Assembly (NCBI GenBank): GCA_019187225.1
Contig: JABAQQ010000026.1
Coordinates: forward strand, 150,192 to 214,191
Origin: Saprospiraceae bacterium
GTDB lineage: Bacteria; Bacteroidota; Bacteroidia; Chitinophagales; Saprospiraceae
Direction: 5' to 3'
DNA length: 64,000 nucleotides
Positions 4,979 through 64,000 of this stretch are shown here, one piece after another. Within the stretch, counting starts at the first letter, position 1. Every line of letters starts with the position of its first letter. Both the position numbers and the translations under genes were made by a program. The notes below the pieces were generated by a model. The model did not search any database. It saw only the letters and a list, made by a program, of their open reading frames with translations, and was not told the DNA's origin.

Positions 4979-5896
4979 GTGCAAATTGAAAAAATCCACA
5001 CCTGTACCGGCCATCGCGCGGCCGTTTATGCCCTCGCCACCGGCAAAGATGAACGGCATTTCCTCTCTGCCGGCGGCGACGGTTGGGTGGTGGAGTGGAA
5101 CCTCGACGACCCGGAAACGGGGCAACTGGTAGCATCGGTCGAGACGCAGGTTTTTTCGCTTTGTGCCCTCGATGCCAATCGTTTGGTGGCGGGCAACATG
5201 AACGGCGGCGTGCATTGGATTGACAGGAACGATCCGGAGAAGACACGCAATATCCGGCATCACAATAAGGGTGTTTACCATATATTGGACACGGGTAAGT
5301 GGGTATTCACTGCTGGCGGCGACGGCATCCTTACCCGCTGGAACCGCGAGTCTGGCAGCAGCGTGGAGAGTTTTCAATTGTCCAACCAGGCGTTGCGGGC
5401 GATTGCTTTTTCCTATAAAAGAAAAGAACTGGCCGTCGGCGCAAGCGACAATTCGATTTACTTCCTCGATGTGGAAACACTTGAACTGAAAGGCATTTTG
5501 AAAGACGCGCATGCCAATTCCATTTTCACAGTTGTTTATTCCCCTGACAGCCAATACCTTTTGAGTGGGGGACGCGATGCCCTGCTGAAAGTATGGGAGT
5601 TGGAAAATCCGCAATCCGAGATCCCTTATCTTTCTCCGCTTTCTCCCGAACATCCCGCGCATTTATTCACTGTCAACCACATCGTTTTTTCCTCCGACGG
5701 CCGGCTCTTCGCCACCGCCAGCCGCGACAAAACGCTGAAGATATGGGATGCACACACCTTCCGACTGCTAAAAGTGATAGATACGATCCGCTACGGCGGG
5801 CATATCAATTCGGTGAACCGGTTGCTGTGGCTGCCCGGTTGCTTAGTGTCGTGCAGTGATGACCGGACGATGATGTTGTGGCGTGTGGTTAATTGA
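4979..5896 (+). CDS. WD40 repeat protein
   Basis: A 305-residue protein made almost entirely of WD40 blades, with recurring GH and WD-type dipeptides (DGWVVEWNL, DGILTRWNR, DALLKVWEL, DKTLKIWD, DRTMMLWR). About seven blades would form one propeller. No signal peptide is present, so it is probably a cytosolic scaffold; partners are unknown. The start is a GTG at 4979. Around 5606-5623 the sequence contains a short copy of the GGATTGC-type repeat seen elsewhere (encoding ENPQSEI), inside a long inter-blade loop. The stop codon overlaps the end of the convergent gpmI fragment. Confidence 0.9.
   Translation: MQIEKIHTCTGHRAAVYALATGKDERHFLSAGGDGWVVEWNLDDPETGQLVASVETQVFSLCALDANRLVAGNMNGGVHWIDRNDPEKTRNIRHHNKGVYHILDTGKWVFTAGGDGILTRWNRESGSSVESFQLSNQALRAIAFSYKRKELAVGASDNSIYFLDVETLELKGILKDAHANSIFTVVYSPDSQYLLSGGRDALLKVWELENPQSEIPYLSPLSPEHPAHLFTVNHIVFSSDGRLFATASRDKTLKIWDAHTFRLLKVIDTIRYGGHINSVNRLLWLPGCLVSCSDDRTMMLWRVVN
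5606..5623. repeat. short GGATTGC-type unit inside the WD40 gene
   Basis: AATCCGCAATCCGAGATC, the reverse complement of about two units of the GGATTGC/GGATCTC family, encoding NPQSEI in a loop between blades. Confidence 0.4.
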
Positions 5897-6149
5897 TCAA
5901 ACTCCCCCCCGTCATCTCCTTACCCTTTTCCATCCCCATCAGCGCCAGCAAAGTCGGCGCGACATCTGCCAGTCGCCCATTCTTAAGTTTTTCATTTTCA
6001 GTGAGGCGGCGGCTGACGAGAATGCAAGGCACGGGATTTTTCGTGTGTGCGGTGTTGGGCGTCCAGTCTTCGTTGATCATGTAGCCCGAATTGTCGTGGT
6101 TGGCAATGATGAAGCAGGAATAATCGTGCTTGAGCGCGAGTGGGATGAT
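5889..6149 (-). pseudogene. duplicated 3' end of gpmI (fragment)
   Basis: On the minus strand this stretch encodes the last ~86 residues of 2,3-bisphosphoglycerate-independent phosphoglycerate mutase, ending in its own stop codon (TAA at 5889-5891). By eye it matches 71 of 86 residues of the intact gpmI C-terminus (6885-7145). Homology begins immediately after the antitoxin stop codon. The metal-binding DHGNSD of the intact enzyme reads NHDNSG here. There is no start codon or upstream domain, so it cannot make an enzyme. Together with gpmI it flanks the toxin-antitoxin pair as a direct repeat. Confidence 0.9.
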
Positions 6150-6151
6150 TT

Positions 6152-6884: not shown

Positions 6885-8432
6885 TTACGATACCAAATTC
6901 TCCCCCGTCATCTCCTTCCCCTTCTCCATCCCCATCATTGCCAGCAAGGTTGGCGCCACATCGGCCAAACGTCCATTCTTCAGTCTTTCATTCCCAGAGA
7001 GATGGCGGCTGACGAGGATACACGGTACCGGGTTTTTCGTATGCGCCGTGTTCGGCGTTCCGTCCTCGTTGATCATATAGTCCGAATTGCCATGATCGGC
7101 AATGATAAGACAGGAATAATCGTGTTCGAGCGCGAGCGGTATGATCTGGCTCAGGCACTGATCCACCGTTTCGGCCGCTTTCATGGCGGCTTTGAATACG
7201 CCTGTGTGGCCTACCATATCGGTATTGGCGAAGTTGAGACAGATAAAATCCGGCTCGTTTTCCCGGATATCTTTCATAATGGCGTCGCGGATGTCGGGCG
7301 CGCTCATTTCAGGTTGCAGGTCGTAGGTCGCCACTTTGGGCGAAGGGCATAAGAGGCGGCGCTCCCCTTTGAACGGCTCCTCGCGCCCGCCCGAAAAAAA
7401 GAAGGTGACGTGCGGGTATTTCTCCGTTTCGGCGATGCGCACCTGGGTTTTGCCTGCTTTTTCCAGTATCTCGCCCATCGTCATGCTCACGTCGTCTTTT
7501 TCAAACATCACCTGCACGTTGCGGTACTTATCGTCGTAGCGCGTCATGGTGACGTAGTGCAGCGGGAGGGTGTGCATGTTGTACTCGTGCATGTCCTCCT
7601 GTGTAAGCGCCATAGTGATCTCGCGGCAGCGGTCGGTGCGGAAATTGAAGCAGATGACAGCGTCGTCGGGTTGAATGGTTGATTGCGGATTGCGGATTGC
7701 AGATTGCGGATTGGGGGCGACGAACATGGGCTTCAAAAACTCGTCGGTCACGCCGGCATCGTAACTCTTTCGGATGGCCGAGGGAATATCGGTGACCGCT
7801 TCTCCGATCCCGTTCACGAGCAGATCGTAGGCGAGTTTGACGCGTTCCCAGCGTTTGTCGCGGTCCATGGCGTAGTAGCGCCCGATGACGGAGGCTACTT
7901 TTACGGGTTGATTCTCAATGTGTTTCAATAAGTCCTCCAGAAAACCCGCTCCGCTTTTGGGATCGCAGTCGCGTCCGTCGGTGAAGGCATGGACGAACAC
8001 TTTCCGGTTGCCGTTTTCGGTGGCGATATCGCACAAGGCCTTGAGGTGTTCGATGTGCGAATGCACGCCGCCGTCGCTCACCAGTCCGATAAAATGCACG
8101 GCTTTGCCGTTGGTTTTGGCGTAATCGAGGGCGTCGAGCAGCACTTTGTTGTCGTGCAATTCGCGTTCTCGGACGGCTTTGTTGATGCGCGCCAGTTCCT
8201 GCCATACAATGCGTCCGGCGCCGATGTTGAGGTGGCCGACTTCGGAGTTGCCCATTTGTCCTTCGGGTAGGCCCACATCTTCGCCGTGCGTGACGAGCGT
8301 GCTGTGCGGGTATGTTGACCAAAGATGGTCGAAGAAGGGCGTATTGGCTTGCCGGATGGCGTCGGCTTCGGGTTTCTGGCCGAGGCCCCAGCCGTCGAGG
8401 ATGAGGAGGAAGGCGCGGTGTATATTTCCCAT
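6885..8432 (-). CDS. gpmI: 2,3-bisphosphoglycerate-independent phosphoglycerate mutase
   Basis: A full-length iPGM of 515 residues (alkaline phosphatase superfamily). It converts 3-phosphoglycerate to 2-phosphoglycerate in glycolysis and gluconeogenesis. It carries the N-terminal LDGWG metal site, the catalytic serine region GNSEVGHLNIGAGR, the HSHIEHL and DGRDCDP motifs, and a C-terminal IIADHGNSD metal site. About residues 239-251 (DNA 7681-7716) are an in-frame run of the genome's GGATTGC-type repeat, read as NPQSAIRNPQS, inserted in a surface loop. The ATPase gene ends 10 bases upstream and the toxin gene follows closely, so this housekeeping gene is sandwiched between conflict genes. Confidence 0.96.
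   Translation of the reverse strand: MGNIHRAFLLILDGWGLGQKPEADAIRQANTPFFDHLWSTYPHSTLVTHGEDVGLPEGQMGNSEVGHLNIGAGRIVWQELARINKAVRERELHDNKVLLDALDYAKTNGKAVHFIGLVSDGGVHSHIEHLKALCDIATENGNRKVFVHAFTDGRDCDPKSGAGFLEDLLKHIENQPVKVASVIGRYYAMDRDKRWERVKLAYDLLVNGIGEAVTDIPSAIRKSYDAGVTDEFLKPMFVAPNPQSAIRNPQSTIQPDDAVICFNFRTDRCREITMALTQEDMHEYNMHTLPLHYVTMTRYDDKYRNVQVMFEKDDVSMTMGEILEKAGKTQVRIAETEKYPHVTFFFSGGREEPFKGERRLLCPSPKVATYDLQPEMSAPDIRDAIMKDIRENEPDFICLNFANTDMVGHTGVFKAAMKAAETVDQCLSQIIPLALEHDYSCLIIADHGNSDYMINEDGTPNTAHTKNPVPCILVSRHLSGNERLKNGRLADVAPTLLAMMGMEKGKEMTGENLVS
7681..7716. repeat. GGATTGC-type short tandem repeat inside gpmI
   Basis: About five imperfect copies of a 7-8 base unit (GGATTGC/AGATTGC). Related arrays occur at 27047-27091, 35651-35687 and 40063-40100, all intergenic. 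Here the array is in frame within gpmI. Confidence 0.85.
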
Positions 8433-51054: not shown

Positions 51055-51450
51055 GGGGCTGCCTGGTATTGACGGGAAAGTGTAGTCGCTTCGTAAGCAT
51101 GCCGGGGCATGGTTGGTTACCCCGTAAAAAATAACGACCGAACAACAACTGGCAACTATCAGTATGCCATGGCTGCCTAATTCAAGCGAATTAGAAAGCC
51201 TTTGCGCCGCGTAAGAGCCGACTAAGTCCGCTCTTTTTGCCTTGATGCCTGCTACACAGGCCGCCGCGCATCAAAAAAAAAGCAGGATTGCCCGACGGGA
51301 TGTCTCGACCGAAGGGTGAAACACAGAGGATAAGGTGCGGATGTGTCCGTTTTTGAACCAACCCGCACTCGAAAACCCAATCAAAAACTAAGCATGTAGA
51401 AAGCGTTGCGGCGCTTTGTCCGGACGCGGGTTCGAATCCCGCCAGCTCCA
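51055..51450 (+). ncRNA. ssrA: transfer-messenger RNA (tmRNA)
   Basis: Rescues stalled ribosomes and tags their products. The 5' GGGGCTG pairs with the 3' CAGCTCC (one G-T), forming the tRNA-like acceptor stem. The 3' T arm reads GCGGGTTCGAATCCCGC. The tag reading frame runs to TAA at 51178-51180 and ends TTTGNYQYAMAA; its start is probably near 51124-51130. The YAMAA end is of the type seen in other Bacteroidota. About 396 bases, normal length. CCA is not encoded. A terminator follows. Confidence 0.93.
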
Positions 51451-51460
51451 CAAAATTTTA

Positions 51461-51498: not shown

Positions 51499-51798
51499 TT
51501 TATTGGCCCTTGTGCTTCACCCAAAAAACTTGTCTGATGTTACCTAATTAGGCACCTTGGCTTCAAAATTAGCATATACCGGAAATAGACCGAATTTTGG
51601 GAATCTGTATTTGTGTATTTATCTGTGACCAACTGCTGCTCTACTTTTACACTTTTTACGATGAATATGAAGTGTTGATTGACATTCAACCCGTACCAAT
51701 CTGGAGTGTCGGCAAAGGCATGGGGAGGAAGGAATAGGCAATAGGTGAGGAAATTGGGTATGGAGGGGGAGGATGCAAACTATATTTTCAAATATTGC

Positions 51799-51806
51799 TA
51801 CATTTG
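51799..51806 (+). promoter_or_regulatory. -7 box upstream of the 51863 gene
   Basis: TACATTTG matches TAnnTTTG, 56 bases before the ATG. Confidence 0.35.
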
Positions 51807-51862
51807 CACAATAATCCGGTAGGTATTAGGTCAATCCTGAATTATTTAACTGTTAAAGCATT

Positions 51863-53533
51863 ATGCCCATTCCAAACTCAGCCTTTCATAACCCTGAGAA
51901 TCCAAACGAAGAAGACGAATATTGTAGGGTTAAATTAGAAAAATTAGTAGAAAAAATCAAGCGACGATTCCTGCAGGAGATTCCAAGTAACGATGCCTTG
52001 GTCAAGGCTGCTAACATGGGTATTACAAGAGCAGCACTTGAAAACGCCATGAAAAATGCTTGGGGCGATACAGCTGAGAGATATACCAATACCTTGTGTA
52101 AGTGGCTTAGGGAGGCAAAAAAAATAACACCTGACTGGAATAAAGAAATCCGGGAATGGTGGCTTACCGACCAAACCACCTATGCAACGGTTTCCAAACC
52201 AATGAACTTTATTGTCTTTTTACGGGAAGCTCTTAGCTTGCCGCCAGGCATGGATATACGCATCATCGGTACCTGGCCTCCATCCATCGTCGGGAAGGAA
52301 AACCAAGCTGCCAGGGATTTGCTGAATAACTTGGTGGAGCGTTCCAACAGCGTGCGTATGCTCCAGCCTCGACCTGACAGCCGCTTTTACGCCAAACGGC
52401 TTTATACCCAGCATTTGGAAGACGATGAGGATGAAAGAGAACGCAATTTTAATGCCAGCAAAGAAGACCTGTTTACCCATCTGGAAAAATTGCACCGCCT
52501 GAAAAGAGACCTCAAGAATCCTGAAAAATTTGATTTCCGCTTGTACGACGACTCGCCCGGAATGCGTATGTTTGCTCACGGGGAATATATCTATGTCAGC
52601 CATCTTTTGGATCATTTGGGCTCTAACGAAACTTTTTCTACCGTTTATGCCAACGATGGTTCTGATTCAGCCCGGCAATTGCTCGATCATTTCGACCATA
52701 TTTGGAAATCCGCTGCAGAATACCAGGGCATATCCAACCGTGAAAGGTTCAATCTTCAAATGATTGGAAAACTTGCCGGCATATATAAGGTGTTCAATTA
52801 CTGCCACAAGCTTGATCAGGTGCTTAACCGGGAAATTCCCGCCACCCAGATTGGCGCACTGAAAATTCATCCAAATGGATTTATTGAACAGCGAACTTAT
52901 CGTGGCGACACCGAAGATACAGACCGCAATGAAGGCTGGGCGCTCTTGGTGGGTAGTAACCTGTTGATGGAAGTGCGCAATGTGCGTTCGCCCAAATTCA
53001 CAGCTTTTTCCATCATTCGCCGCGCCAGAGGGTTTGAGGGGCTACCCGGCCAATATCTTTTTGGTACTTTGATTGTACCCAAAAAACGAGATTCAAATCC
53101 CACCGCATTACGGGTTATCTTGCAACGCCAAACTGAATCCACAAAACTTGATGACATAGAGTGCACTAAAATTGCTATTAAAGACCTCGCACCAGCGGAA
53201 AAAATTCCGCCCACCGTGCGCCGTTTTCTTTCTGGTGTGTTCAGAAATATGCTTCGATTCCGGGAGAATGCTATCCTGAACGATGCCTCGCTGGAGGAGG
53301 AAATGAACCATACTAAAGTCAAACTTGGCAGAGTGATGGCCGCTTATGCTAAGGTGCTTCAGTTGGAAAATGCAGAAATGGAAGACATCGTAAGCGCTCT
53401 GCGCTGGGCACTTACTCATGGTTACCGAAACTGGGAACGAATTCAAAAAGAATTCGGGGATACGGTTACCCAGCATGAAGGACTGGCCGAAATTTTCGCA
53501 AGAATAAAAATTGAAAACCCGTCAAAAAAATGA
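51863..53533 (+). CDS. unrecognised 556-residue protein at the island edge
   Basis: Soluble, strongly charged, no signal peptide. Residues ~85-200 are helical with a conserved-looking TWPPSIVGKENQAARDLL; the middle (~230-340) is acidic; the C-terminal ~120 residues are helical. I cannot assign it to a family. It is the first gene after the tmRNA, reads away from it, and is followed by a strong terminator, so it forms its own transcription unit. Its place next to defence genes makes it a candidate for an unknown defence or mobile-element function; this is guilt by association only. Confidence 0.75.
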   Translation: MPIPNSAFHNPENPNEEDEYCRVKLEKLVEKIKRRFLQEIPSNDALVKAANMGITRAALENAMKNAWGDTAERYTNTLCKWLREAKKITPDWNKEIREWWLTDQTTYATVSKPMNFIVFLREALSLPPGMDIRIIGTWPPSIVGKENQAARDLLNNLVERSNSVRMLQPRPDSRFYAKRLYTQHLEDDEDERERNFNASKEDLFTHLEKLHRLKRDLKNPEKFDFRLYDDSPGMRMFAHGEYIYVSHLLDHLGSNETFSTVYANDGSDSARQLLDHFDHIWKSAAEYQGISNRERFNLQMIGKLAGIYKVFNYCHKLDQVLNREIPATQIGALKIHPNGFIEQRTYRGDTEDTDRNEGWALLVGSNLLMEVRNVRSPKFTAFSIIRRARGFEGLPGQYLFGTLIVPKKRDSNPTALRVILQRQTESTKLDDIECTKIAIKDLAPAEKIPPTVRRFLSGVFRNMLRFRENAILNDASLEEEMNHTKVKLGRVMAAYAKVLQLENAEMEDIVSALRWALTHGYRNWERIQKEFGDTVTQHEGLAEIFARIKIENPSKK

Positions 53534-53596
53534 TCTAAAATATTGATTTTGATTTTATTTTTAAAATAAAAATTTAAAACTTTCATGCAATGCAAG

Positions 53597-53628
53597 GGAC
53601 TTTCAGGATAACTGAAAGTCCTTTTTTC
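53597..53628 (+). terminator. intrinsic terminator
   Basis: GGACTTTCAG and CTGAAAGTCC are a perfect 10-base stem with a 5-base loop, followed by six T residues. Confidence 0.92.
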
Positions 53629-53732
53629 TTTGAAAGTAATTGCATTCCAAATGCAAAACAGTATTCGATCGCGCCTGTGAAGAATATCGGACTTTTGACT
53701 CATTCAAATGTTAACCAAAATATGTTTTCGCC

Positions 53733-54107
53733 ATGAAATTTTTGATTCAACTGGTGCTGGTGGGGTTGACATTCAGAGTCGGGTACTCCTACTTCTATTC
53801 TATGCCCACTGCGCCCAAGCAAGTTCCTTCCCTGGTGAAGGTAAATGATCTGTTGACGCATCCCGGAGACTTTCAGGGAAAATACGTCATGCTTTCTGAT
53901 GGCTCGGCCGTTGATCCGATTTTTATTGGAGGCAGATGTTTCTTCCAAATTCAGGGTCGAGAATCAGTGGAGACCATTAAAGCGGTATCGTATCGCTTAT
54001 GGGAGACTCAAACGCCTACTTCAAGCGGCGTGTTTCTGTTTGAGGTGGCCTATTCCGACCCTAAAAATCGGTTGTTGTTACTCCGTGAGGTAAAGTTTCC
54101 AAGTTAA
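53733..54107 (+). CDS. small membrane-anchored hypothetical protein
   Basis: A 124-residue protein with an N-terminal hydrophobic signal or anchor (KFLIQLVLVGLTFRVGYSYF). The rest is a compact beta-rich domain (HPGDFQGKYVMLSDGSAVD), resembling an OB-like cytochrome-maturation fold at best; this is uncertain. First of three exported or membrane proteins (53733-55816) in the same direction. Confidence 0.65.
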   Translation: MKFLIQLVLVGLTFRVGYSYFYSMPTAPKQVPSLVKVNDLLTHPGDFQGKYVMLSDGSAVDPIFIGGRCFFQIQGRESVETIKAVSYRLWETQTPTSSGVFLFEVAYSDPKNRLLLLREVKFPS

Positions 54108-54168
54108 CCTTTCATCAGAGGCTGCCATTTCAATGTCCCGTAAAGGTAGACTCATAAACCTGTTCCAT

Positions 54169-54849
54169 ATGCGTCTATTATTGATTTTCCCTCTGCTCGC
54201 TTTTGCACTGCCAACCTGTCAAAACGACCGCGAAGAATTTGCTCTGGCCGTCGAACCAGTAGTGTCGGTAGTCCTGTTGACCGACGACTCTCTTTCCGAT
54301 TTGTTCATCCGGCCCGATACAGCCACTTTGCGGGTATTATTGTCGCCCTACCTGGTAGGTGGACTTGAATTGAGTGTTGTTTCGGTAAAGGCCGACAGCT
54401 ACAAACAAACCGTTTATTACTCAGGATTGCTACAAGTGGATACCCTGCCAAAGTCTTCCAATTTTATTAAAAGCCGCAACAACCGTGCGGAGAATAAAAA
54501 ACGCATGACTCAGGCAGCAGCCTTGCTAAAACCGGTGCTGGATTCTTTGCAACAGCGCTTCGACCATACACGCAAATGCGATAGCTCTGACGTTGACAAT
54601 GCGTTGTTTTGGGTCAACATTGCGGCAAGCAATGCGGTAAAAAAATCACATAAGGTTATCGTAATCCTCGCCAGCGATCTGGTACAGGATATGATCCATT
54701 ACGTCCAGGAATCTACTCATACCATACAACTGCCTCCGGGAATACAGTTGGTCGTAATCGGGCATCATCCTTCCGTAGATTTGAAACAGTTGTTTCCCGG
54801 GCAAAAGCCCTTGGTGCTCCCATCCTTCCAGCACTTGCAACAACTTTAA
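54169..54849 (+). CDS. exported VWA-like protein
   Basis: A 226-residue protein from ATG 54169 (signal peptide MRLLLIFPLLAFALPTC; 54133 is an upstream alternative). The Cys after the signal has a weak lipobox. VVLLTDDSLSD near the start of the mature part has the MIDAS pattern DxSxS, and KVIVILASDLVQD could supply a later strand with Asp, so a von Willebrand A-like fold is likely. Function unknown; it lies between two membrane proteins. Confidence 0.65.
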   Translation: MRLLLIFPLLAFALPTCQNDREEFALAVEPVVSVVLLTDDSLSDLFIRPDTATLRVLLSPYLVGGLELSVVSVKADSYKQTVYYSGLLQVDTLPKSSNFIKSRNNRAENKKRMTQAAALLKPVLDSLQQRFDHTRKCDSSDVDNALFWVNIAASNAVKKSHKVIVILASDLVQDMIHYVQESTHTIQLPPGIQLVVIGHHPSVDLKQLFPGQKPLVLPSFQHLQQL

Positions 54850-54931
54850 GGTTGGTTTGCAAGGAGTATTGATCCGGTTCAAATAAATATTTCACTTATT
54901 AGCTCTCTGGCTGTTTCTAACTCAAGCAGAA

Positions 54932-55816
54932 ATGCCAAATAATATGAGGTTGGAAATGGCGGGGAGATCAAAACTTTCTTGCCAGGCCATGACAACTATT
55001 CTAACAAACCTCCAAATGGTGGAGGATTCATTCCGGAAGGCAGAATTTGCCGCAGCCCAATTCTTTCAAACGCTGGTAAAACGCACCTTACTAATGCGTG
55101 AAAAAAACGATTTTGTTAACAGGAATCACCACTTCCTTATTATAGACGATGCCAAGCGGTTTACGCAAAAAATGGCTATTCCATTCTATGTCTCGGCGGG
55201 TCTGGTGCAGTCCATTTTCCTGTATAACATGTTGGATGCCGCATTTTTTGCAGATATGGAAAACGGAAAATTCTGGTACAATCTGCTTTGTGTATTGGCC
55301 GGAATTGCGCCCATTGGATGCAGCCTGTGGGCGGGAAATTGCTTTCTTCAAATTCAGCCGAAAGCAGACCCGGTGGTGCCGGGCCGACTCCATTATCACC
55401 GAGGCTGGTTAGCAAGTTTTCTAATTATCAGCTTCGTCTATCTTGGATTTGTGGTATTACTCACCAAATTCAACAGTAACCCAGGCGAATACGACTTGAT
55501 CATTGTGCCAGTTCTGGCAGTGGTTGAACTCATCCTCGGTGTTCCAGCTGTGGAAGGCCTTAATGCCTTAGCGCTTTTTTGGAACAAAAGAAACCACATC
55601 AAGGGACTCCTCGACAACTCAGCGGCGCTGCTGAAATGGGCCGGGAAGTGTGCAACAGCTTATCGACATTACCTGCAGTATCGCATTCTTTTCAATAAGC
55701 AACATCCTGAAAACCAAATAGATTTGCTCACTTCTCCTCAAATAGAGCGCGCTATTCAGTACTTTAAAGGTTATTGGAACTACGACAACCACTCGCTCAC
55801 AGATTGCACGGGATGA
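54932..55816 (+). CDS. multi-pass membrane protein, unrecognised
   Basis: A 294-residue protein with a helical cytoplasmic N-terminus (~1-75) and about four transmembrane helices (VSAGLVQSIFLYNML, WYNLLCVLAGIAPIGCSLW, WLASFLIISFVYLGFVVLL, YDLIIVPVLAVVELILGV). The C-terminus is helical. It precedes the type I restriction operon by ~100 bases. No family recognised. Confidence 0.7.
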   Translation: MPNNMRLEMAGRSKLSCQAMTTILTNLQMVEDSFRKAEFAAAQFFQTLVKRTLLMREKNDFVNRNHHFLIIDDAKRFTQKMAIPFYVSAGLVQSIFLYNMLDAAFFADMENGKFWYNLLCVLAGIAPIGCSLWAGNCFLQIQPKADPVVPGRLHYHRGWLASFLIISFVYLGFVVLLTKFNSNPGEYDLIIVPVLAVVELILGVPAVEGLNALALFWNKRNHIKGLLDNSAALLKWAGKCATAYRHYLQYRILFNKQHPENQIDLLTSPQIERAIQYFKGYWNYDNHSLTDCTG

Positions 55817-55914
55817 ACATCCTCTCAATGTATAAGCGGGCAAACCCCGAAAATCCAACAAAACACTTTTCTTTGCCCCCCAATGGCGCGAAGTTTGCGC
55901 GATACCCTACGCCA

Positions 55915-58302
55915 ATGGACGAAAAGAAAATCATTATCCTGCCAGACAGTGACAGCGAAGCCGATACCTGCCGAAAGGAGGTAACGCCGAAACTCTATGC
56001 GAGCGAGTGGACGGATGAACAGATATTGGAGCAGCGCGTGTTCACCGACGGCAAAATCATTGTGCTGGGAAAAGTGGCGAAGCGGCAAAAACCGAAAAAG
56101 GCCGACTACATTTTGCGCATCGGCCAAAACTTCCCGGTTGCCGTGATCGAGGCAAAGAAGAAATACAAAACCGCCGCCGCCGGGCTGCAACAGGCGAAAG
56201 ACTACGCCGAAACGTTGGGGCTGAAATTCGCATACGCGACCAACGGCGCGGAAATCGTGGAGTTTGATTATGTCACGGGGTTTGAAACGATTATTGATAG
56301 ATACCCGACCCCGCAAGAACTTTGGAACCGACTACAAGCCGCCGAACCTATTAGCGAACGCACGAAAGAAATCCTGCTCAAACCTCTTTTCCCAACGCCC
56401 AGCAAGCCGCCCCGCTATTATCAGGAAATCGCTGTCAACCGGGCGGTGCAAGCCATTTTGGAAGGCAAAAAACGGGTGTTGCTGACATTGGCGACGGGTA
56501 CAGGCAAAACTTCGGTTGCCTTTCAAATCATCTACAAACTTTGGAACAACCGTTGGAACAACACCGGCGAACACCGCCGCCCGAAAGTGTTGTTTTTGGC
56601 CGACCGCAAAGTTTTGGTGGATGACCCCTATGTGAAAGACTTTGCCGTGTTCGGCGATGCAAGGGCATCGGTTTTCGATAGCGGCGCGACCACAAGCCGC
56701 GAAATCTACTTTTCAACTTATCAGTCATTGGCCGAAAGCGAGAGCCGGGAAGGGCTGTTCCGGCGATTTCCCAAAAATTTCTTTAACCTGATAGTGGTGG
56801 ATGAATGTCATCGGGGCAGCGCATCGGATGACAGTAATTGGCGTGCCATTTTGGACTACTTCGCGGATGCCGTGAAATTGGGTTTGACGGCTACACCCTT
56901 GCGGCAAGACAACGTGGACACCTACGCCTATTTTGGAAACCCGCTTTACACTTACAGTTTGCGGCAAGGCATCGAAGATGGATTTTTAGCCCCTTATATG
57001 GTGCATCGTATTACGACCGAAGTGGACACACAACACGGTTGGCGACCAGAAGCAGGACAATTAGATGCTTTTGGTCGTGAAATTCCAGACGGTGTTTATT
57101 CAACCGCAGATTTTGAAAACACCCTCTCGCTGTTGCCGCGCACGAAAGCAGTTGCCCGGCATCTCACCGAGCATTTGAAAAAATACGGCAGGTTGGACAA
57201 GACCATCGTTTTTTGTGTTGACCAAGAACACGCCGACCAAATGCGCCGGGAGTTGGGAAATCTCAACGCCGATTTGGTGAAGCAAAACCCGAACTACGTT
57301 GCCCGTATCGTTTCGGATGAAGGCGATGAAGGGAAAAAATTGTTGGGCAATTTCATGGACATCGAGCAGGATTTCCCCGTCATTGTCACCACCTCCAAAC
57401 TGTTGAGCACCGGCGTTGACATCCCGACCTGCAAAAACATTGTCATTTTCCGCATGGTCAATTCGATGACCGAATTTAAGCAAATCGTTGGGCGCGGAAC
57501 GCGGGTAAGGGAAGATAAGGGCAAATTGTTCTTCACCATTTTAGACTACACCGGCAGCGCAACGCGCAACTTTGCCGACCCCGAATTTGACGGAGAACCG
57601 CCGTTAATCACTTCGGAAGAAATGGACGAAAACGGCGAAGTCGTAGAGGGCACTTTTGTTGAGGAACGCACCGAGCAACCGACCGCCGATTGGACAGACG
57701 AAGAAATCGCGGCGATGACCAACCAAAACCAGCAGCCCCGCAAATACTATGTGAAAGAGGGTGAAGTTACCATTGTGGCCGAATCGGTGCAAGTGTTGGA
57801 CGCGGGCGGCAAGTTGCGCACCGTGCAATTCACCCAATACGCCAAAGAGCAAATAACAACGCTTTACACCGATGCCGGAAGTTTCCGGGCGGCTTGGGCT
57901 GACCCCGAACGGCGGCAAGAAATCGTGGCTGAATTGGAAGGCAGGGGCATATCATTGGAACAACTTTCAGACATAACTAAGTTGACCGATGCCGACCCCT
58001 TCGATATGCTTTGCCACGTCGCGTTTGACCTCAAACCCATGACCCGCCGCGAACGCGCCGAACGGGTGCGCAAAGCCGCCGCTTTCGCCGCCTACTCCAA
58101 CGGGGCGCGGGAAGTCATTGATTTGATTTTGGACAAATACATTCAGTTTGGAGCGAACGAATTGAACGCGGGCATTTTGGAAGTGAAACCTATTTCCGAC
58201 AAAGGCAACGTCATGGAAATTGCCGCCATGTTCGGCGGCGCACCGAACCTGCTGAACGCATTGGACGAACTTCAAAAATTACTCTACGCCGAAGCCGCGT
58301 AA
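55915..58302 (+). CDS. hsdR: type I restriction endonuclease, R subunit (EcoEI-like)
   Basis: A 795-residue motor/nuclease subunit when started at ATG 55915 (MDEKKIIILPDSDSEAD). N-terminal PD-(D/E)xK nuclease region with VAVIEAKKKY (~76), SF2 helicase motifs LTLATGTGKTSVA (~187), VDECHRG (~295), LTATPLRQD and QIVGRGTRVRED, then an EcoEI_R_C-type C-terminal domain. Cleaves unmodified foreign DNA after translocation, together with HsdM and HsdS. The shorter length fits the EcoEI (type IB) group. Followed 8 bases later by hsdM. Confidence 0.95.
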   Translation: MDEKKIIILPDSDSEADTCRKEVTPKLYASEWTDEQILEQRVFTDGKIIVLGKVAKRQKPKKADYILRIGQNFPVAVIEAKKKYKTAAAGLQQAKDYAETLGLKFAYATNGAEIVEFDYVTGFETIIDRYPTPQELWNRLQAAEPISERTKEILLKPLFPTPSKPPRYYQEIAVNRAVQAILEGKKRVLLTLATGTGKTSVAFQIIYKLWNNRWNNTGEHRRPKVLFLADRKVLVDDPYVKDFAVFGDARASVFDSGATTSREIYFSTYQSLAESESREGLFRRFPKNFFNLIVVDECHRGSASDDSNWRAILDYFADAVKLGLTATPLRQDNVDTYAYFGNPLYTYSLRQGIEDGFLAPYMVHRITTEVDTQHGWRPEAGQLDAFGREIPDGVYSTADFENTLSLLPRTKAVARHLTEHLKKYGRLDKTIVFCVDQEHADQMRRELGNLNADLVKQNPNYVARIVSDEGDEGKKLLGNFMDIEQDFPVIVTTSKLLSTGVDIPTCKNIVIFRMVNSMTEFKQIVGRGTRVREDKGKLFFTILDYTGSATRNFADPEFDGEPPLITSEEMDENGEVVEGTFVEERTEQPTADWTDEEIAAMTNQNQQPRKYYVKEGEVTIVAESVQVLDAGGKLRTVQFTQYAKEQITTLYTDAGSFRAAWADPERRQEIVAELEGRGISLEQLSDITKLTDADPFDMLCHVAFDLKPMTRRERAERVRKAAAFAAYSNGAREVIDLILDKYIQFGANELNAGILEVKPISDKGNVMEIAAMFGGAPNLLNALDELQKLLYAEAA

Positions 58303-58310
58303 CCCTCCCT

Positions 58311-59894
58311 ATGGCAAAACGAGAAAAGCAAGAAAAGACCGTCAAAACCGAAACCACCGCTCAACGCTTGTCCGGCCTGATAAAGTCGTGCCGCGACATC
58401 ATGCGCAAGGACAAGGGCATGAATGGCGATGCCGACCGCCTGCCGATGCTGACTTGGATAATGTTCCTGAAATTTCTGGACGACGTGGAACAGGCACAGG
58501 AAACCAAAGCCTTGTTGAGCCGCCAAATCTACCGACCCGCCATTGGTGCGCCCTACCGTTGGCGCGATTGGGCGAAAAACCAGAACCTCACCGGCGACGA
58601 CCTCTTGGCATTTATCAACAACGAAAAATGTACCCTGCCCGACGGTACGGAAGGCGCGGGTTTGTTTTACCACCTGCGCAGCCTGCAAAGCGAATCAGGC
58701 CGGGAGCGCAAAGACGTAGTGGCAACCGTGTTTCGGGGCGTGACCAACCGAATGATTAACGGCTACCTGTTGCGCGACGTGGTGAACAAAATAGACAGCA
58801 TCCACTTCACCAGCACCGAAGAAATTTACACGCTTTCGCACCTGTACGAAAGCATCCTGAAAGAAATGCGCGACGCATCGGGCGACGCGGGCGAATTTTA
58901 CACACCTCGCCCCGTCGTGAAATTCATGGTGCAAATGCTCGACCCGCGATTGGGCGAAAGCATACTCGACCCCGCCGCCGGGACGGGCGGTTTTTTGGTG
59001 GAAGCCTTCGAGCATTTGCGCCGACAAGCCCAAACCGTAGAGCAGCGCGACACGCTGCAACAAAGCAGCATCTACGGCGGCGAAGCGAAACCCCTGCCTT
59101 ACCTGCTTTGTCAAATGAATTTGCTGTTGCACGGCCTCGAATATCCGAACATTGATAGCGGCAACTCCCTTCGCACCCCGCTACGCGACATCGGCGACCG
59201 CGACCGCGTGGACATCATTTTGACCAACCCGCCTTTCGGCGGCGAAGAAGAACGCGGCATCCTCAACAACTTCCCGGACGATATGCGCACGGCGGAAACC
59301 GCCCTGCTGTTCCTGCAACTGATTATGCGACGGCTGAAACGTGCCAAACCCGGCATACGGGGAGGCAGAGCCGCCGTTGTCGTGCCGAACGGAACGCTGT
59401 TTGCCGACGGCATCGCCGCCCGCATCAAAGAGCAGATGTTGAAAGAATACAACCTGCATACCGTCGTGCGGCTGCCCGACGGCGTGTTTGAACCTTACAC
59501 CTCCATCCCGGCCAACCTGCTGTTTTTTGAGCAAGGACAGCCAACCCGCGACGTGTGGTTTTACGAAATACAGCCGCCCGCCGAACGCAAAAAATACTCG
59601 AAAACCAAGCCCATGCAGTTCGATGAATTCGCCGGGTGCATGGCATGGTGGAACGACCGGCATGAAAATGAAAACGCTTGGCGCATACCCGCCGCCGAAA
59701 TCCTGCAATACGACGCGGGCGGCAGACTGCTTTCGGCCAACCTCGACCGCAAAAACCCCAACCGCCGCAACGAAGCCGAACACACCGACCCCGCCGAAGC
59801 CATTGCCGCCATACTCGAAAAGGAGCGGCAAATCATGGAACTGATGACCGAAATCCAACACCTGATTGGAGCGGAAAAGGAGGTGACGGCATGA
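58311..59894 (+). CDS. hsdM: type I restriction-modification methyltransferase, M subunit
   Basis: A 527-residue N6-adenine methyltransferase. HsdM N-terminal helical domain (LSGLIKSCRDIMRKDKG), SAM-binding DPAAGTGGF (~220) after FYTPRPVVKFMVQML, and catalytic NPPF (~305, LTNPPFGGEEERG). Methylates the system's target site. The last codons overlap hsdS by four bases (ATGA). Confidence 0.97.
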   Translation: MAKREKQEKTVKTETTAQRLSGLIKSCRDIMRKDKGMNGDADRLPMLTWIMFLKFLDDVEQAQETKALLSRQIYRPAIGAPYRWRDWAKNQNLTGDDLLAFINNEKCTLPDGTEGAGLFYHLRSLQSESGRERKDVVATVFRGVTNRMINGYLLRDVVNKIDSIHFTSTEEIYTLSHLYESILKEMRDASGDAGEFYTPRPVVKFMVQMLDPRLGESILDPAAGTGGFLVEAFEHLRRQAQTVEQRDTLQQSSIYGGEAKPLPYLLCQMNLLLHGLEYPNIDSGNSLRTPLRDIGDRDRVDIILTNPPFGGEEERGILNNFPDDMRTAETALLFLQLIMRRLKRAKPGIRGGRAAVVVPNGTLFADGIAARIKEQMLKEYNLHTVVRLPDGVFEPYTSIPANLLFFEQGQPTRDVWFYEIQPPAERKKYSKTKPMQFDEFAGCMAWWNDRHENENAWRIPAAEILQYDAGGRLLSANLDRKNPNRRNEAEHTDPAEAIAAILEKERQIMELMTEIQHLIGAEKEVTA

Positions 59895-61048
59895 AAGAGG
59901 GTTGGAAAATGGTAAAATTGGGCAAGGTGCTTCAACGGCAATTTGATAGCGTTCAAATTGATGACTTTGAAGCCTATAAGCGGCTAACTATCAAAACAAA
60001 AGGGCAGGGGATTTCTTTGCGAGATGAAGTTTTGGGCGCGGAAATCGGCACAAAAAATCAATTTAAAGTACGGGCTAATCAGTTTCTTCTTTCAAAAATT
60101 GATGCAATGAATGGAGCGTTCGGTATTATCCCAAAAGAGTGCGACGGCGGAATTATCACAGGAAATTTTTGGACTTTTGATTTTGATGAAGATGTTTTGA
60201 ACAGGGAATATTTGGATTTTTTGTGTATCGGGGGAGTATTTACAGATTTCAGTTTGAAAGCAAGCGAAGGAACGACCAACCGAAAATATTTGAGAGAAGA
60301 TAAATTCAACAACCTCGATTTCCCCCTCCCGCCTCTCACCGAGCAACAGCGCATCGCCGGGCGGTTGGCGGCGTTGAAGGGGAAAATAGATGCGGTGCGG
60401 GCATTGAGGGGGGAGCAGGTGCGGGAGGTGGAAAGGGTGAAAAACACCTATTTAGGGCAGGTTTTTGATGATTTGGAGAGCCAATATAAATCTGTAAAGT
60501 TGTCTGATATTGCATCAGTGAACATGGGGCAAAGCCCCGATGGAAGTTCCTACAATCAAAACGGCGAGGGAGTACCGTTACTTAATGGCCCCACCGAATT
60601 TGGCGCGATTCACCCAAAAGAGATTCAATGGACAACCTCACCAACTAAATTTTGTCAAAAGGGCGATTTGTTGATTTGTGTTAGGGGTGCAACGACAGGG
60701 AAAATGAATTGGGCGGACAAATCTTATTGCATCGGTCGCGGATTGGCTGCAATTCGAGCGAAAGCGGACGTCTTTGACAACGATTTCGTACAGCAATTTT
60801 TGGCAGCCAGAATAAACCAACTTTTAGCTTTGACTGCCGGAAGCACCTTCCCAAACTTGCCGGGAGAAAAATTGAAAACCTTTCAAATCCCACTTTTACC
60901 CCTCACCGAGCAACGCCGCATCGTTGCCGAAATTCAAGCCTTTCAAACCAAAATGGAGCAACTGAAAGCGGCGCAAGCGGGGCAGTTGGCCGGGTTGGAG
61001 GGATTGTTTCCGGCGGTGTTGGAGAAGGCGTTTCGGGGGGAGTGGTGA
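59891..61048 (+). CDS. hsdS: type I restriction-modification specificity subunit
   Basis: A 385-residue protein from ATG 59891. Two target-recognition domains, each ended by a conserved coiled-coil hinge: PLPPLTEQQRIAGRLAALKGK (~145) and PLLPLTEQRRIVAEIQAF (~335). Sets DNA specificity of the HsdRMS complex. The last 67 bases (60982-61048) recur at 62069-62135, beyond the AbiC-like gene. Confidence 0.95.
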   Translation: MKEGWKMVKLGKVLQRQFDSVQIDDFEAYKRLTIKTKGQGISLRDEVLGAEIGTKNQFKVRANQFLLSKIDAMNGAFGIIPKECDGGIITGNFWTFDFDEDVLNREYLDFLCIGGVFTDFSLKASEGTTNRKYLREDKFNNLDFPLPPLTEQQRIAGRLAALKGKIDAVRALRGEQVREVERVKNTYLGQVFDDLESQYKSVKLSDIASVNMGQSPDGSSYNQNGEGVPLLNGPTEFGAIHPKEIQWTTSPTKFCQKGDLLICVRGATTGKMNWADKSYCIGRGLAAIRAKADVFDNDFVQQFLAARINQLLALTAGSTFPNLPGEKLKTFQIPLLPLTEQRRIVAEIQAFQTKMEQLKAAQAGQLAGLEGLFPAVLEKAFRGEW

Positions 61049-62064
61049 GCAAAAAAATTGACTTAGATATGGGAACCAATCATTATCGGCTGTCAAATTT
61101 TTTTTGGAAGGCAGGTTTAATCTTGCTTGCAGCCATTACTTTGCTTTTTGGCCTGAAAACAACTCCGATACATTTTCACGATGCAATCAACACGGATATA
61201 TTTGACGATTATGGTTCATTCGTTGGAGGCTTGGTTGGAGCGTTTTTTTCGTTGGCAGGTATTTTTCTAATTCTCCATACCATCAATGAGCAGAAAAAAG
61301 AAATTAGTGACCGAGCATTGAACGAGCAACGTCAAAAAATAGAAAGTAGATTTTTTGAACTTTTAAAAATCCAACGGGAGATATGCAATGAAATACGATT
61401 AGGGGAAAAAATTGGAAAGTATGCTATTCAGGAGATGCTTCGTGAAATCAGAATATGCCAAGATATGGTCTCAGAACAAAGTGAAAAACTTGAAAACCCA
61501 TATTCCGAAGAACGAATGTTAAATTTTACATATCTGGCATTTTATTACGGAACTGTTACCTACGAAAGGTCAAAAAAATTGGAAACGTTTAGGCTAAGTG
61601 TTGAAGATTACGACCAAAATTTTGTCGAGGAAATCATTAAATTTTCCACTGAGAATAGGGAGCAATACAAAGAGCAGCATAAATTTAATTACAATGTATT
61701 TGGGGGACATCAAATCAGACTCAACCAATATTTCAGGCATTTATTTCATACAGTTACCTACATTGATAATCAACCTTCAATTGTTCTTTCTTATGCGGAA
61801 AAGTGCGAATATATTGAGACATTAAGAGCGCAACTTTCACCGCATGAGCAGGTATTACTTTTTCACAACTCGATGTCCGAATTGGGTAAGGAATGGGAAA
61901 AGATGCACACCGATAATCCTAATAAGGGACTAATTACAAAGTATAATCTAATAAAAAACATATTCAGTTTTCATCCGAGATATACAGAAAATTACCCCTG
62001 CGCGGAATTTGATAATAGACCTGTGCCGGAATGTCGGAAAGCATTGCTCAAAATATACCGATAG
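61042..62064 (+). CDS. putative phage abortive infection protein (AbiC-like, PF16872 type)
   Basis: A 340-residue protein. Two N-terminal transmembrane helices (FWKAGLILLAAITLLFGL and GSFVGGLVGAFFSLAGIFLIL), a coiled-coil linker, then a helical domain with FFELLKIQREICNEIRLGE, the YFRHLFHTVTYID motif and RAQLSPHEQVLLFHNS, which are features of the putAbiC family. Probably acts in anti-phage defence at the membrane. GTG start at 61042 overlaps the hsdS stop by seven bases; ATG 61069 is an alternative. It is flanked on both sides by the hsdS 3' end and has lower GC than hsdRMS, suggesting transfer. Confidence 0.85.
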   Translation: MVSKKIDLDMGTNHYRLSNFFWKAGLILLAAITLLFGLKTTPIHFHDAINTDIFDDYGSFVGGLVGAFFSLAGIFLILHTINEQKKEISDRALNEQRQKIESRFFELLKIQREICNEIRLGEKIGKYAIQEMLREIRICQDMVSEQSEKLENPYSEERMLNFTYLAFYYGTVTYERSKKLETFRLSVEDYDQNFVEEIIKFSTENREQYKEQHKFNYNVFGGHQIRLNQYFRHLFHTVTYIDNQPSIVLSYAEKCEYIETLRAQLSPHEQVLLFHNSMSELGKEWEKMHTDNPNKGLITKYNLIKNIFSFHPRYTENYPCAEFDNRPVPECRKALLKIYR

Positions 62065-62068
62065 CATT

Positions 62069-62135
62069 GCAGTTGATCGGGTTGGAGGGTTTGTTTCCGG
62101 CGGTGTTGGAGCGGGCGTTTCGGGGGGAGTGGTGA
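62069..62135 (+). pseudogene. duplicated 3' end of hsdS
   Basis: 67 bases matching the last 67 bases of hsdS (60982-61048) at 62 positions by eye, including the stop codon, coding for GLEGLFPAVLERAFRGEW. It begins 4 bases after the AbiC-like stop codon. Not a gene; it is the far-side repeat of the insertion. Confidence 0.93.
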
Positions 62136-62150
62136 GGGTTCTACTTTGGG

Positions 62151-62202
62151 GAACTGCCTGAAAACTGCTCTTTTACTGCCAAAAGACTGCCTGAATACTG
62201 CT
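62151..62202. repeat. 19-base direct repeat upstream of the HipA-like kinase
   Basis: GAACTGCCTGAAAACTGCT (62151-62169) and AGACTGCCTGAATACTGCT (62184-62202) match at 16 of 19 positions. Located 30-80 bases before the kinase start; a possible operator. Confidence 0.5.
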
Positions 62203-62231
62203 TTAAAACACCTACCTATTGAAGCCTAATC

Positions 62232-63266
62232 ATGTCAAACGCGCTGAAAAATATAGCCTACGAAAAACACTCCGGGTTTGACCCCGATTTGCGGGCGCAC
62301 ATACCGACCCTTCCCAAACGGCACATGGAAATTTTGGACGTGTCCATTTCGGGCGAAGCGCCAAAAGATTTTATCCGGGTGTACGAATACGGGCGCACCT
62401 CCCGCAAAAGCAAGCCTAAAACATGGACACCGTACATTGCCAAATGTGCCGAAAAATGGTATCCCAATGAAAGCATTACGGAACATTTGCTCAATCGTTT
62501 GGGTTTTGCTTTAGGTGTGAAGGTCGCCGCCTCCCGCTTGGTTGTGGACGAACAATTTGGGCGGCTTCGATTTTTGAGCGAGTATTTTTTGCGTTCGGGG
62601 GAAAAACTTGAACACGGGGCGGAAATTTTCGCCGGTTATCTTTCCGCCGATACCGGGTTGGTTGACGAAATCGAAAAAGACCGGAAAACAGTTCGAGACC
62701 TTTTTACGTTTCAGTTTGCGGAAAAAGCCATGCAACACCGCTTCGGGCATGGCGACGAATGTACGAAGTTAACCTTCGATTTGGTGCGGATGCTTTGCTT
62801 TGATGCCATTACCGGCAACAATGACCGGCACACTTACAATTGGGGCATCATCCGCGATTTGAGCGGCAAGCGAGCGCCGTGTTTTGCTCCGATTTACGAT
62901 ACTGCAAGGGGACTTCTTTGGAACGAACACGAAGAAAATTTGGCACGTTTTCAGGGGAAAGAAGGTGCGGCCAAACTTGAAAAATACCTTCGGGAATCCA
63001 AACCCCGCATTGGTTGGGAAGGTGAAAAAGACCCGAACCATTTTGAGTTGGCACTTCTTTTATATCAAACACGCCCCGACTTTCGTTTCATTTTCGATGA
63101 AATGCTTACCCCCGAACACAGGGAAGCCGCGAATGAATTGCTAAAAAGTGAGTTTGGAAAATTGTTTTCCGTAACTCGTTACGAATTGATAAAAGAATGT
63201 CTTAATTTGCGCATCCAAAAGTTAACCGACATCATTAACCAAATTAAAAAGGAGGAACGCACATGA
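62232..63266 (+). CDS. HipA-like serine/threonine kinase (HipT-like core)
   Basis: A 344-residue HipA_C-type kinase. Catalytic GNNDRHTYNW (Asp ~198, metal-binding Asn ~203) and the DFG-equivalent YDTARG (Asp ~223). It lacks the HipA N-subdomain, which is encoded by the next gene with a 4-base overlap. Relatives phosphorylate aminoacyl-tRNA synthetases and arrest growth. No HipB-like helix-turn-helix gene is seen in the window. Confidence 0.85.
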   Translation: MSNALKNIAYEKHSGFDPDLRAHIPTLPKRHMEILDVSISGEAPKDFIRVYEYGRTSRKSKPKTWTPYIAKCAEKWYPNESITEHLLNRLGFALGVKVAASRLVVDEQFGRLRFLSEYFLRSGEKLEHGAEIFAGYLSADTGLVDEIEKDRKTVRDLFTFQFAEKAMQHRFGHGDECTKLTFDLVRMLCFDAITGNNDRHTYNWGIIRDLSGKRAPCFAPIYDTARGLLWNEHEENLARFQGKEGAAKLEKYLRESKPRIGWEGEKDPNHFELALLLYQTRPDFRFIFDEMLTPEHREAANELLKSEFGKLFSVTRYELIKECLNLRIQKLTDIINQIKKEERT

Positions 63267-63688
63267 AAGCATGGCTAAAAAACCGCTGGAAGCGTTCTGA
63301 CGAAGCCAGTACGCAAGACGCGGAAAAACAAATGCAATCCGCCCCCCGAATCGTTTTTCGTCTCATTTACAAAAATGACGAAATTGGGACGCTGGAATTT
63401 AGCGGCGACAAATGGGTTTTTGCTTATTCGGATTGGTTCAAAAACCAATCGGACATTGAGCCATTTGCCAATTTCCCGGACGTAAATCACGAATACGTTT
63501 CCAATGATTTGCCGCCGTTTTTTGAAAGCCGCTTGCCGGGTATTTCACAACCACAGGTTGAGGCATATTTGGCGTTGCTGAAAGAGCGTGAAAAAACCAT
63601 CAACGAAGGCCAAAAGAAGGTTGCGCTTTTGAAGAAATTTGGTCGGCACACCATTACCAACCCGTTTGAGTTGCAACCGGCGTTTTAA
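63263..63688 (+). CDS. HipA N-terminal-domain protein (HipS-like)
   Basis: A 141-residue protein. Residues ~30-110 resemble the HipA N-subdomain 1 (Couple_hipA/HipN): FRLIYKNDEIGTLEFSGDKWVFAYSDWF and LPPFFESRLPG. In tripartite HipBST systems the small HipS is the antitoxin for HipT. Here the order is kinase then small protein, with ATGA overlap, the reverse of hipB-hipS-hipT. A strong terminator follows. Confidence 0.75.
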   Translation: MKAWLKNRWKRSDEASTQDAEKQMQSAPRIVFRLIYKNDEIGTLEFSGDKWVFAYSDWFKNQSDIEPFANFPDVNHEYVSNDLPPFFESRLPGISQPQVEAYLALLKEREKTINEGQKKVALLKKFGRHTITNPFELQPAF

Positions 63689-63753: not shown

Positions 63754-63873
63754 GACAATGTAGGGTTTTACGGAAAACCCAAAGAGAAATTTACGAGTGG
63801 GGAATCAGGCTTTCGGTTGCCGCGTCAATGCGGCGAAAACATCAACGGGCGAAGGAATGAGAGCGCCAAGTAA

Positions 63874-64000
63874 GTAAGCGTCCGGCCAACTACACCTTTC
63901 ACGCTTAGGGTTTGTACCAGTGAGGGTATTGCACCAATGGTTTCCAGCGGTGGGGCAGCAGTTCGCTGATACGGTTTACGGGGTGTTCCTGGATTCGGAA
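63874..64000. mobile_element. end of an IS66-family insertion sequence (continues past the window)
   Basis: The terminal inverted repeat GTAAGCGTCCGGCC begins at 63874 and matches the IS66 GTAAGCG terminus. The transposase reading frame lies on the minus strand just inside. If correct, the 8-base target duplication is CCAAGTAA (63866-63873) and should recur beyond the other end. The stretch 63754-63873 before it holds only small hairpins. Confidence 0.75.
63905..64000 (-). CDS. IS66-family transposase, C-terminal fragment (partial)
   Basis: The minus-strand frame reads into a stop (TAA at 63907-63905) and encodes HPVNRISELLPHRWKPL near the end, the conserved C-terminal motif of IS66 transposases (NRxxELLPxxW). 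The rest of the gene lies outside the window. Confidence 0.75.
   Translation of the reverse strand, partial: FRIQEHPVNRISELLPHRWKPLVQYPHWYKP

Follow-up and report, generated by a model that had tools for sequence, protein, structure and literature searches.

Genes of the restriction island

The window analysed here is a stretch of 64,000 nucleotides from contig JABAQQ010000026.1 of a Saprospiraceae bacterium. Behind the tmRNA gene ssrA it carries a type I restriction-modification operon, an AbiC-like gene (abi) and a HipA-like gene pair, and the 3' end of hsdS occurs on both sides of abi. The features are:

51055-51453, plus strand: ssrA (tmRNA), left neighbour of the island
51501-55839: block of 4.3 kb; its ORFs (556, 124, 238 and 294 aa) match no Pfam family
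55915-58302, plus strand: hsdR, HsdR domains (Pfam), PADLOC
58311-59894, plus strand: hsdM, N6_Mtase/HsdM_N (Pfam), PADLOC
59891-61048, plus strand: hsdS, Methylase_S (Pfam), PADLOC; 385 aa, open
60982-61049, plus strand: repeat copy 1, the final 67 bases of hsdS plus one base
61042-62064, plus strand: abi, AbiC-like gene, putAbiC PF16872; 340 aa from the first GTG
62069-62136, plus strand: repeat copy 2, within a 38-codon open frame
62232-63266, plus strand: hipA, HipA C-terminal-domain protein (HipA_C; PADLOC candidate PDC-M03A)
63263-63688, plus strand: hipN, separate HipA N-terminal-domain protein (Couple_hipA; PDC-M03B)
63799-63873: right edge of the variable slot, 75 bases, 89% match to C2:653209-653283 of genome G749, behind that genome's own cargo

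The genes hsdR, hsdM and hsdS are adjacent and open, as in a type I restriction-modification system, and HipA_C and the HipA N-terminal domain are split over two adjacent genes, as in the PADLOC candidate PDC-M03. NCBIfam gave no name for abi, hipA or hipN. A scan of ten ORFs in 51863-63688 found no recombinase family; the contig extends no further than 64000. A second, different target-recognition domain was not found nearby, and a second hsdS is represented by its last 67 bases only. The 4.3 kb block between ssrA and hsdR is possibly an unnamed defence system. At the contig end, positions 63874-64000 have no sequence in common with G749 and may belong to the beginning of an insertion sequence, which they resemble.

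The 3' end of hsdS is repeated behind abi

From the letters alone, the sequence-only reading had counted by eye 62 of 67 identical bases between the hsdS end and a second copy beginning four bases past the AbiC-like stop. The alignment returned the same count (63/68, or 62/67 up to the stop codon, with differences at five positions), and four bases (62065-62068) separate the abi stop at 62064 from copy 2. The reading frame is kept in copy 2, which ends with ...QLIGLEGLFPAVLERAFRGEW and a stop, and copy 1 ends with ...QLAGLEGLFPAVLEKAFRGEW. The two tails are direct, in-register repeats at a distance of 1087 bases.

The background was determined with the 162 ORF ends of the window (ORFs of at least 100 aa, both strands), each compared with its best same-strand match elsewhere. 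The hsdS-end pair scored 63/68, followed by 54 and 53 for one unrelated duplicated region, by 44 and 40 for one ORF end each and by at most 38 for all others. Permuted tails (n=300) also reached 38 at most, and the repeat of the hsdS end is genuine and not a chance match. A third copy was not found: the genome of 7.18 Mb, a draft assembly of 73 contigs, gave only two matches at E 0.001 or better.

The duplicated region lies at about 5889-6151 and 6885-8432 of the window, where ORF ends match at 52-54 of 66 bases, and both of its copies match one and the same place in genome G761. An inverted match of 23 bases (22/23) was observed between 59578-59600 in hsdM and 62579-62601 in hipA, both coding sequence.

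Second hsdS ends were then sought in other loci. When 57 loci were scanned for a repeated hsdS end at 46 or more of 66 bases, the only loci found were the window's own sequence, in which the scan also picked up two ORF-end matches of 52 and 54/66 from the unrelated duplicated region. Behind 17 other hsdS genes, with 2.0 to 6 kb of downstream sequence, no second tail was observed (0/17). A finer scan gave best scores of 9 to 13 in these 17 loci versus 52 in the window, with permuted tails at 10 to 14; L022 and L025 scored 1 and 2 points above the best of the 12 permutations made for each. A search with the 26-aa tail in 298 genomes of the order, which would miss a remnant as short as that of G793 described below, gave hits in four genomes, and only the window has the tail twice.

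At the DNA level the repeat was matched in 2 of 150 family genomes and, at E 1e-3 or better, in 6 of 396 order genomes (G000, G761, G749, G093, G793 and G770); in the latter search two candidates were scored per genome for the 193 genomes with a match at E 1 or better, weaker matches being dropped. Good DNA matches were few and close by kinship. In many relatives the protein motif of the repeat was present and, where found, it ended hsdS ORFs. A common coding motif at the ends of unrelated genes, which the earlier reading had named as the finding that would speak against it, was therefore rejected as an explanation, given the narrow range of the DNA repeat. The other cargo bounded by the same repeat that it proposed to look for was not found among the loci tested. 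A second hsdS end is absent from all other tested loci, and on this sampling the repeat seems to go back to one event and not to a general cassette system. No description of an hsdS end, abi and hsdS end in this order was found in the titles and abstract openings of open-access papers among the matches listed.

The AbiC-like gene

The abi product matches putAbiC PF16872 with E 1.7e-14 and 54.5 bits, compared with a Pfam gathering score of 22. Seventeen relatives from the same phylum, including a short one of 191 aa, align with it from end to end; they extend at most 15 residues beyond its end, and no truncation is visible. With the conserved domain, the full length and two hydrophobic stretches close to the N terminus it resembles the rest of its family. 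PADLOC gave AbiP as the sole match, and a weak one (E 1.7e-6, residues 58-144). Solved structures gave two matches at E 0.39, which is not meaningful, and a structure model from the single sequence was poor (mean pLDDT 41) and was left unused.

The G+C content of abi is 35.6%, compared with 51.0% for the window, a composition that is foreign. Its first GTG (61042) overlaps the hsdS stop, as the sequence-only reading had claimed, though translation could also begin at a second GTG (61045) or at an in-frame ATG (61069). Given the overlap, coupled translation of hsdS and abi is plausible, and from its family and position the product is probably an abortive-infection protein that is anchored in the membrane and translated from the hsd transcript.

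Relatives of abi are rare and were found, the own genome included, in 5 of 150 family genomes at E 1e-3 and in 16 of 395 phylum genomes at E 1e-8. The window differs from these relatives in that its abi overlaps the end of an hsd operon: at the 17 loci (16 genomes) that contain an abi relative, no relative of the window's HsdR, HsdM or HsdS was observed at E 1e-4, a count for which some loci were short, the queries were proteins of the window's subtype and three weak abi matches (L007-L009) were left out. A general link between abi and hsdS was rejected on this count. A viral source of abi was also considered, and no relative was confirmed among 10 candidate stretches.

Empty sites and the same locus in close kin

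The earlier reading held that abi interrupts an hsdRMS-to-HipA gene order and proposed a search for empty sites with a single hsdS end. Such a site was found in G093 (JABWBR010000055.1), a Saprospiraceae genome of another genus, where hsdR, hsdM, a small ORF, hsdS, hipA and hipN follow each other without interruption. Here hipA lies 43 bases past the hsdS stop, there is one hsdS end and no abi, and the HipA pair shows a 70% match to that of the window. The order has further support from G793, a genome of the window's own genus, in which hipA-hipN is directly preceded by the last 26-28 bases of hsdS (27/28 identical). This remnant lies directly behind a shortened Bro-N gene, and no HsdS relative was found in the stretch around it. 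From these two genomes, the hsdS end before hipA-hipN is probably older than the insertion of abi.

Relatives of hipA (E 1e-40) occur in 16 of 199 family genomes, G793 not being among the 16, and of these only the window and G093 show an hsdS-type end in the fetched stretch. A general unit of hsdS end plus hipA was rejected on these grounds. The Bro-N gene before hsdS or its scar is whole in G749 and shortened in G793 (L103 9870-10754 and L104 9488-9874), and G093 has a Bro-N-like ORF of 85 aa without a Pfam match (L011 4291-4548); in the window no gene lies between hsdM and hsdS.

Two genomes of the same genus, G761 (JAHBTU010000003.1) and G749, have the same chromosomal surroundings as the window, with 85-87% DNA identity in hsdR-hsdM. 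Both have a single hsdS end. In G749 a DUF2971 gene lies 27 bases past hsdS and is followed, on the other strand, by umuC- and umuD-like genes; the window realigns with this genome from 63799. In G761 the gene behind hsdS, on the other strand, encodes an SDH-type protease. The hsdM subtype of the window (at least 92% identity) is present in 3 of 42 genus genomes, the window's included.

In both G749 and G761 the hsdR region begins less than 30 bases past the ssrA terminator, and the 4.3 kb block (51501-55839) is absent between ssrA and hsdR. The end of ssrA with its terminator is repeated about 10 kb further on in G749 (C2:654654-654722) and about 8 kb further on in G761 (C3:65198-65124), as in an island integrated at ssrA. 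Genomic islands are known at this gene, and the locus resembles them in that hsdRMS adjoins ssrA and in the repeated ssrA ends of these two genomes. It differs from them in that no integrase was seen among the scanned ORFs and in that the window's contig ends before the right side.

Genes behind hsdS in wider relatives

The cargo between hsdS and the downstream gene was compared among relatives, as the earlier reading had proposed, and it does vary. A same-strand ORF of at least 100 codons starts within 150 bases past hsdS in 11 of 18 relatives. The 18 consist of 24 relative loci and G749, minus L020, L027, L030 and L031-L033 (no usable hsdS) and L015 (only 352 bases behind hsdS); more distant loci also stand outside the comparison. 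ORFs past hsdS, or past a fused hsdM-hsdS ORF, were taken mechanically, with at least 2 kb downstream in each case. L028, where a 108-codon ORF lies inside a longer other-strand ORF, was not counted, and a separate hsdS is not clear in L023 and L029. Behind hsdS were found:

L012 10702-12190, L019 7793-9336, L024 4923-6429: Kiwa (KwaA-KwaB)
L025: Kiwa, assigned by near identity to the Kiwa locus L024
G749: DUF2971 (PADLOC candidate PDC-S31)
G093: HipA pair, by the match to the window's pair
L021: GmrSD
L022: HTH-IrrE protein
L014, L018, L026: ORFs without a Pfam family

In L012, L019 and L024 the Kiwa genes either overlap the end of hsdS (or of a fused hsdM-hsdS ORF) or begin only a few bases away from it. 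Similar-looking ORFs of 415-423 aa with a common start motif and no Pfam or PADLOC family were observed behind hsdS or Kiwa in three relatives (L018 10704-11951, L026 10169-11419 and L012 12196-13467). From this comparison, the position behind hsdS in the ssrA-linked island looks like a slot for exchangeable, mostly defence-type genes. Swapping of defence genes at this place is suggested because abi sits between two hsdS ends and the relatives without abi have one.

Origin of the arrangement

Type I systems swap hsdS through conserved 5', central and 3' segments. Between the hsdS genes of the window and of G761, blastn matches were confined to the 5' end, 116 central bases (94%) and the final 144 bases (98%), the pattern expected of an exchange through such segments. 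The reading that we favour, and to which we give about an even chance, is that an incoming hsdS-abi piece replaced an older hsdS at the slot, with the right join inside the old hsdS end. In the earlier state hsdS would have been followed directly by hipA-hipN. This hsdS would have been swapped via its conserved segments for a new one that carried abi attached at its stop codon. With the right-hand join within the end of the old hsdS, the latter would have been lost save for its last 67 bases, still standing before hipA-hipN. Since the two tails are in direct orientation and in register, recombination between them could delete abi and would leave an intact hsdS of 385 codons before hipA-hipN. 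The order of events, the right-hand join and this way of deleting abi are what we infer from the comparison.

Replacement agrees with the empty site of G093, the scar of G793 and the single hsdS ends of G749 and G761 with their other neighbours. The sequence past the hsdS end begins alike in G093 and G793, and the alignment of the window with G093 starts at 62187, within the spacer, and runs through hipA-hipN. The full length and foreign G+C of abi and the lack of window-type HsdRMS at the 17 loci of its relatives also count for it. With regard to copy 2, the sequence-only reading had taken the direct repeats to be formed by the 3' end of the neighbouring gene. The flanking repeats are real, and copy 2 is perhaps not a copy of the present hsdS: it differs at 5 bases from copy 1 and at 3 from the hsdS end of G749, with which it has in common a two-base Lys-to-Arg codon change that is not present in copy 1, G761 or G093. 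Copy 2 is probably the displaced end of an earlier hsdS leading into hipA-hipN. Against this, the G749 end has fewer differences from copy 1 (2) than from copy 2 (3), the comparison spans 67 bases, and a single codon links copy 2 to G749. The presumed donor, hsdS followed by abi alone, was not found in any genome, and no homology that would explain the right-hand join is visible. The closest relatives, G761 and G749, have no match to hipA-hipN in the fetched stretches, so that the evidence for the earlier state comes from G793 and, in another genus, G093.

Other origins were weighed against the replacement. A small circle of abi and one hsdS end may have entered the hsdS end of an hsdS-hipA-hipN locus by ordinary homologous recombination. 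The insert would then be abi with one tail, and the crossover would account for the tail on either side. For such a circle the insert is suitably compact, being little more than one ORF with four bases on its right and an overlap on its left, and a crossover between the in-register tails leaves hsdS open. Circular intermediates via hsdS direct repeats are known from the pneumococcal tvr locus, where, according to PMC6265443, excised circles also form in a recA mutant. A donor with abi already beside an hsdS end is required, however, 67 bases are short for homologous recombination, and no second tail was found elsewhere in 298 order genomes by protein or in 396 by DNA with two candidates scored per genome; we regard this origin as unlikely. 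Rather unlikely, too, is that tandem hsdS genes once flanked abi and that the second was deleted down to its last 67 bases. G793 shows that an hsdS can be reduced to 26-28 bases before hipA-hipN, and duplicated hsdS loci, with inverted repeats, account for 3.9% of the type I systems in one survey (PMC7394358), but no trace of the rest of a second hsdS was observed and abi ends just four bases short of the tail.

Some elements integrate into the 3' ends of genes and restore their target, as SCCmec does in rlmH and e14 in icd. The locus resembles them in its open target gene and in the second end on the far side, and differs in that the insert is one gene of the putAbiC family, has no integrase and was seen once. 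It is highly improbable that the hsdS end is such an attachment-like site, at which a recombinase acting in trans placed a mobile abi unit and restored hsdS with its own copy of the end. The anatomy fits, with the compact insert as a further point, and other genes, several of defence families, lie closely behind hsdS in relatives; against it are the lack of a recombinase family among the ten scanned ORFs and of a second tail at the 17 other hsdS loci (9 to 13 versus 52). To chance resemblance or an assembly artefact we give practically no credence. Permuted tails stay at 38 or below where the pair reaches 63/68, and the five mismatches between the two copies, together with the empty site found independently in a relative, make an assembly duplication unlikely.

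Relation to known systems and significance

Each component of the locus is of a known kind; the arrangement itself is a new variation, and the repeat was seen once. The pneumococcal SpnIV tvr locus and the inverting hsdS loci (PMC6265443, PMC7394358) also exchange hsdS segments via conserved parts and carry repeats of hsdS pieces, and here too a deletion between direct repeats would keep hsdS open. Unlike these examples, the window has no recombinase gene, no second complete hsdS and no spare target-recognition domain, and it has a defence-type gene between the repeats.

It is very doubtful that the hsdS 3' end serves for the exchange of single defence genes, which would join or leave an hsd operon as units of ORF plus tail, with hsdS left open each time and the newcomer overlapping it. 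If true, another phage defence would be layered onto restriction in one step. Taken as it stands, the locus has an unusually legible history: it offers a snapshot of a defence gene joining a restriction operon, with the join, the scar and an empty site open to view. Of wider interest is that defence-type genes repeatedly occupy the position behind hsdS, which looks like a recurrent place for them in this restriction subtype. Its unnamed neighbours, such as the 415- and 416-aa ORFs of L018 and L026, may thus be candidates for new defence genes.
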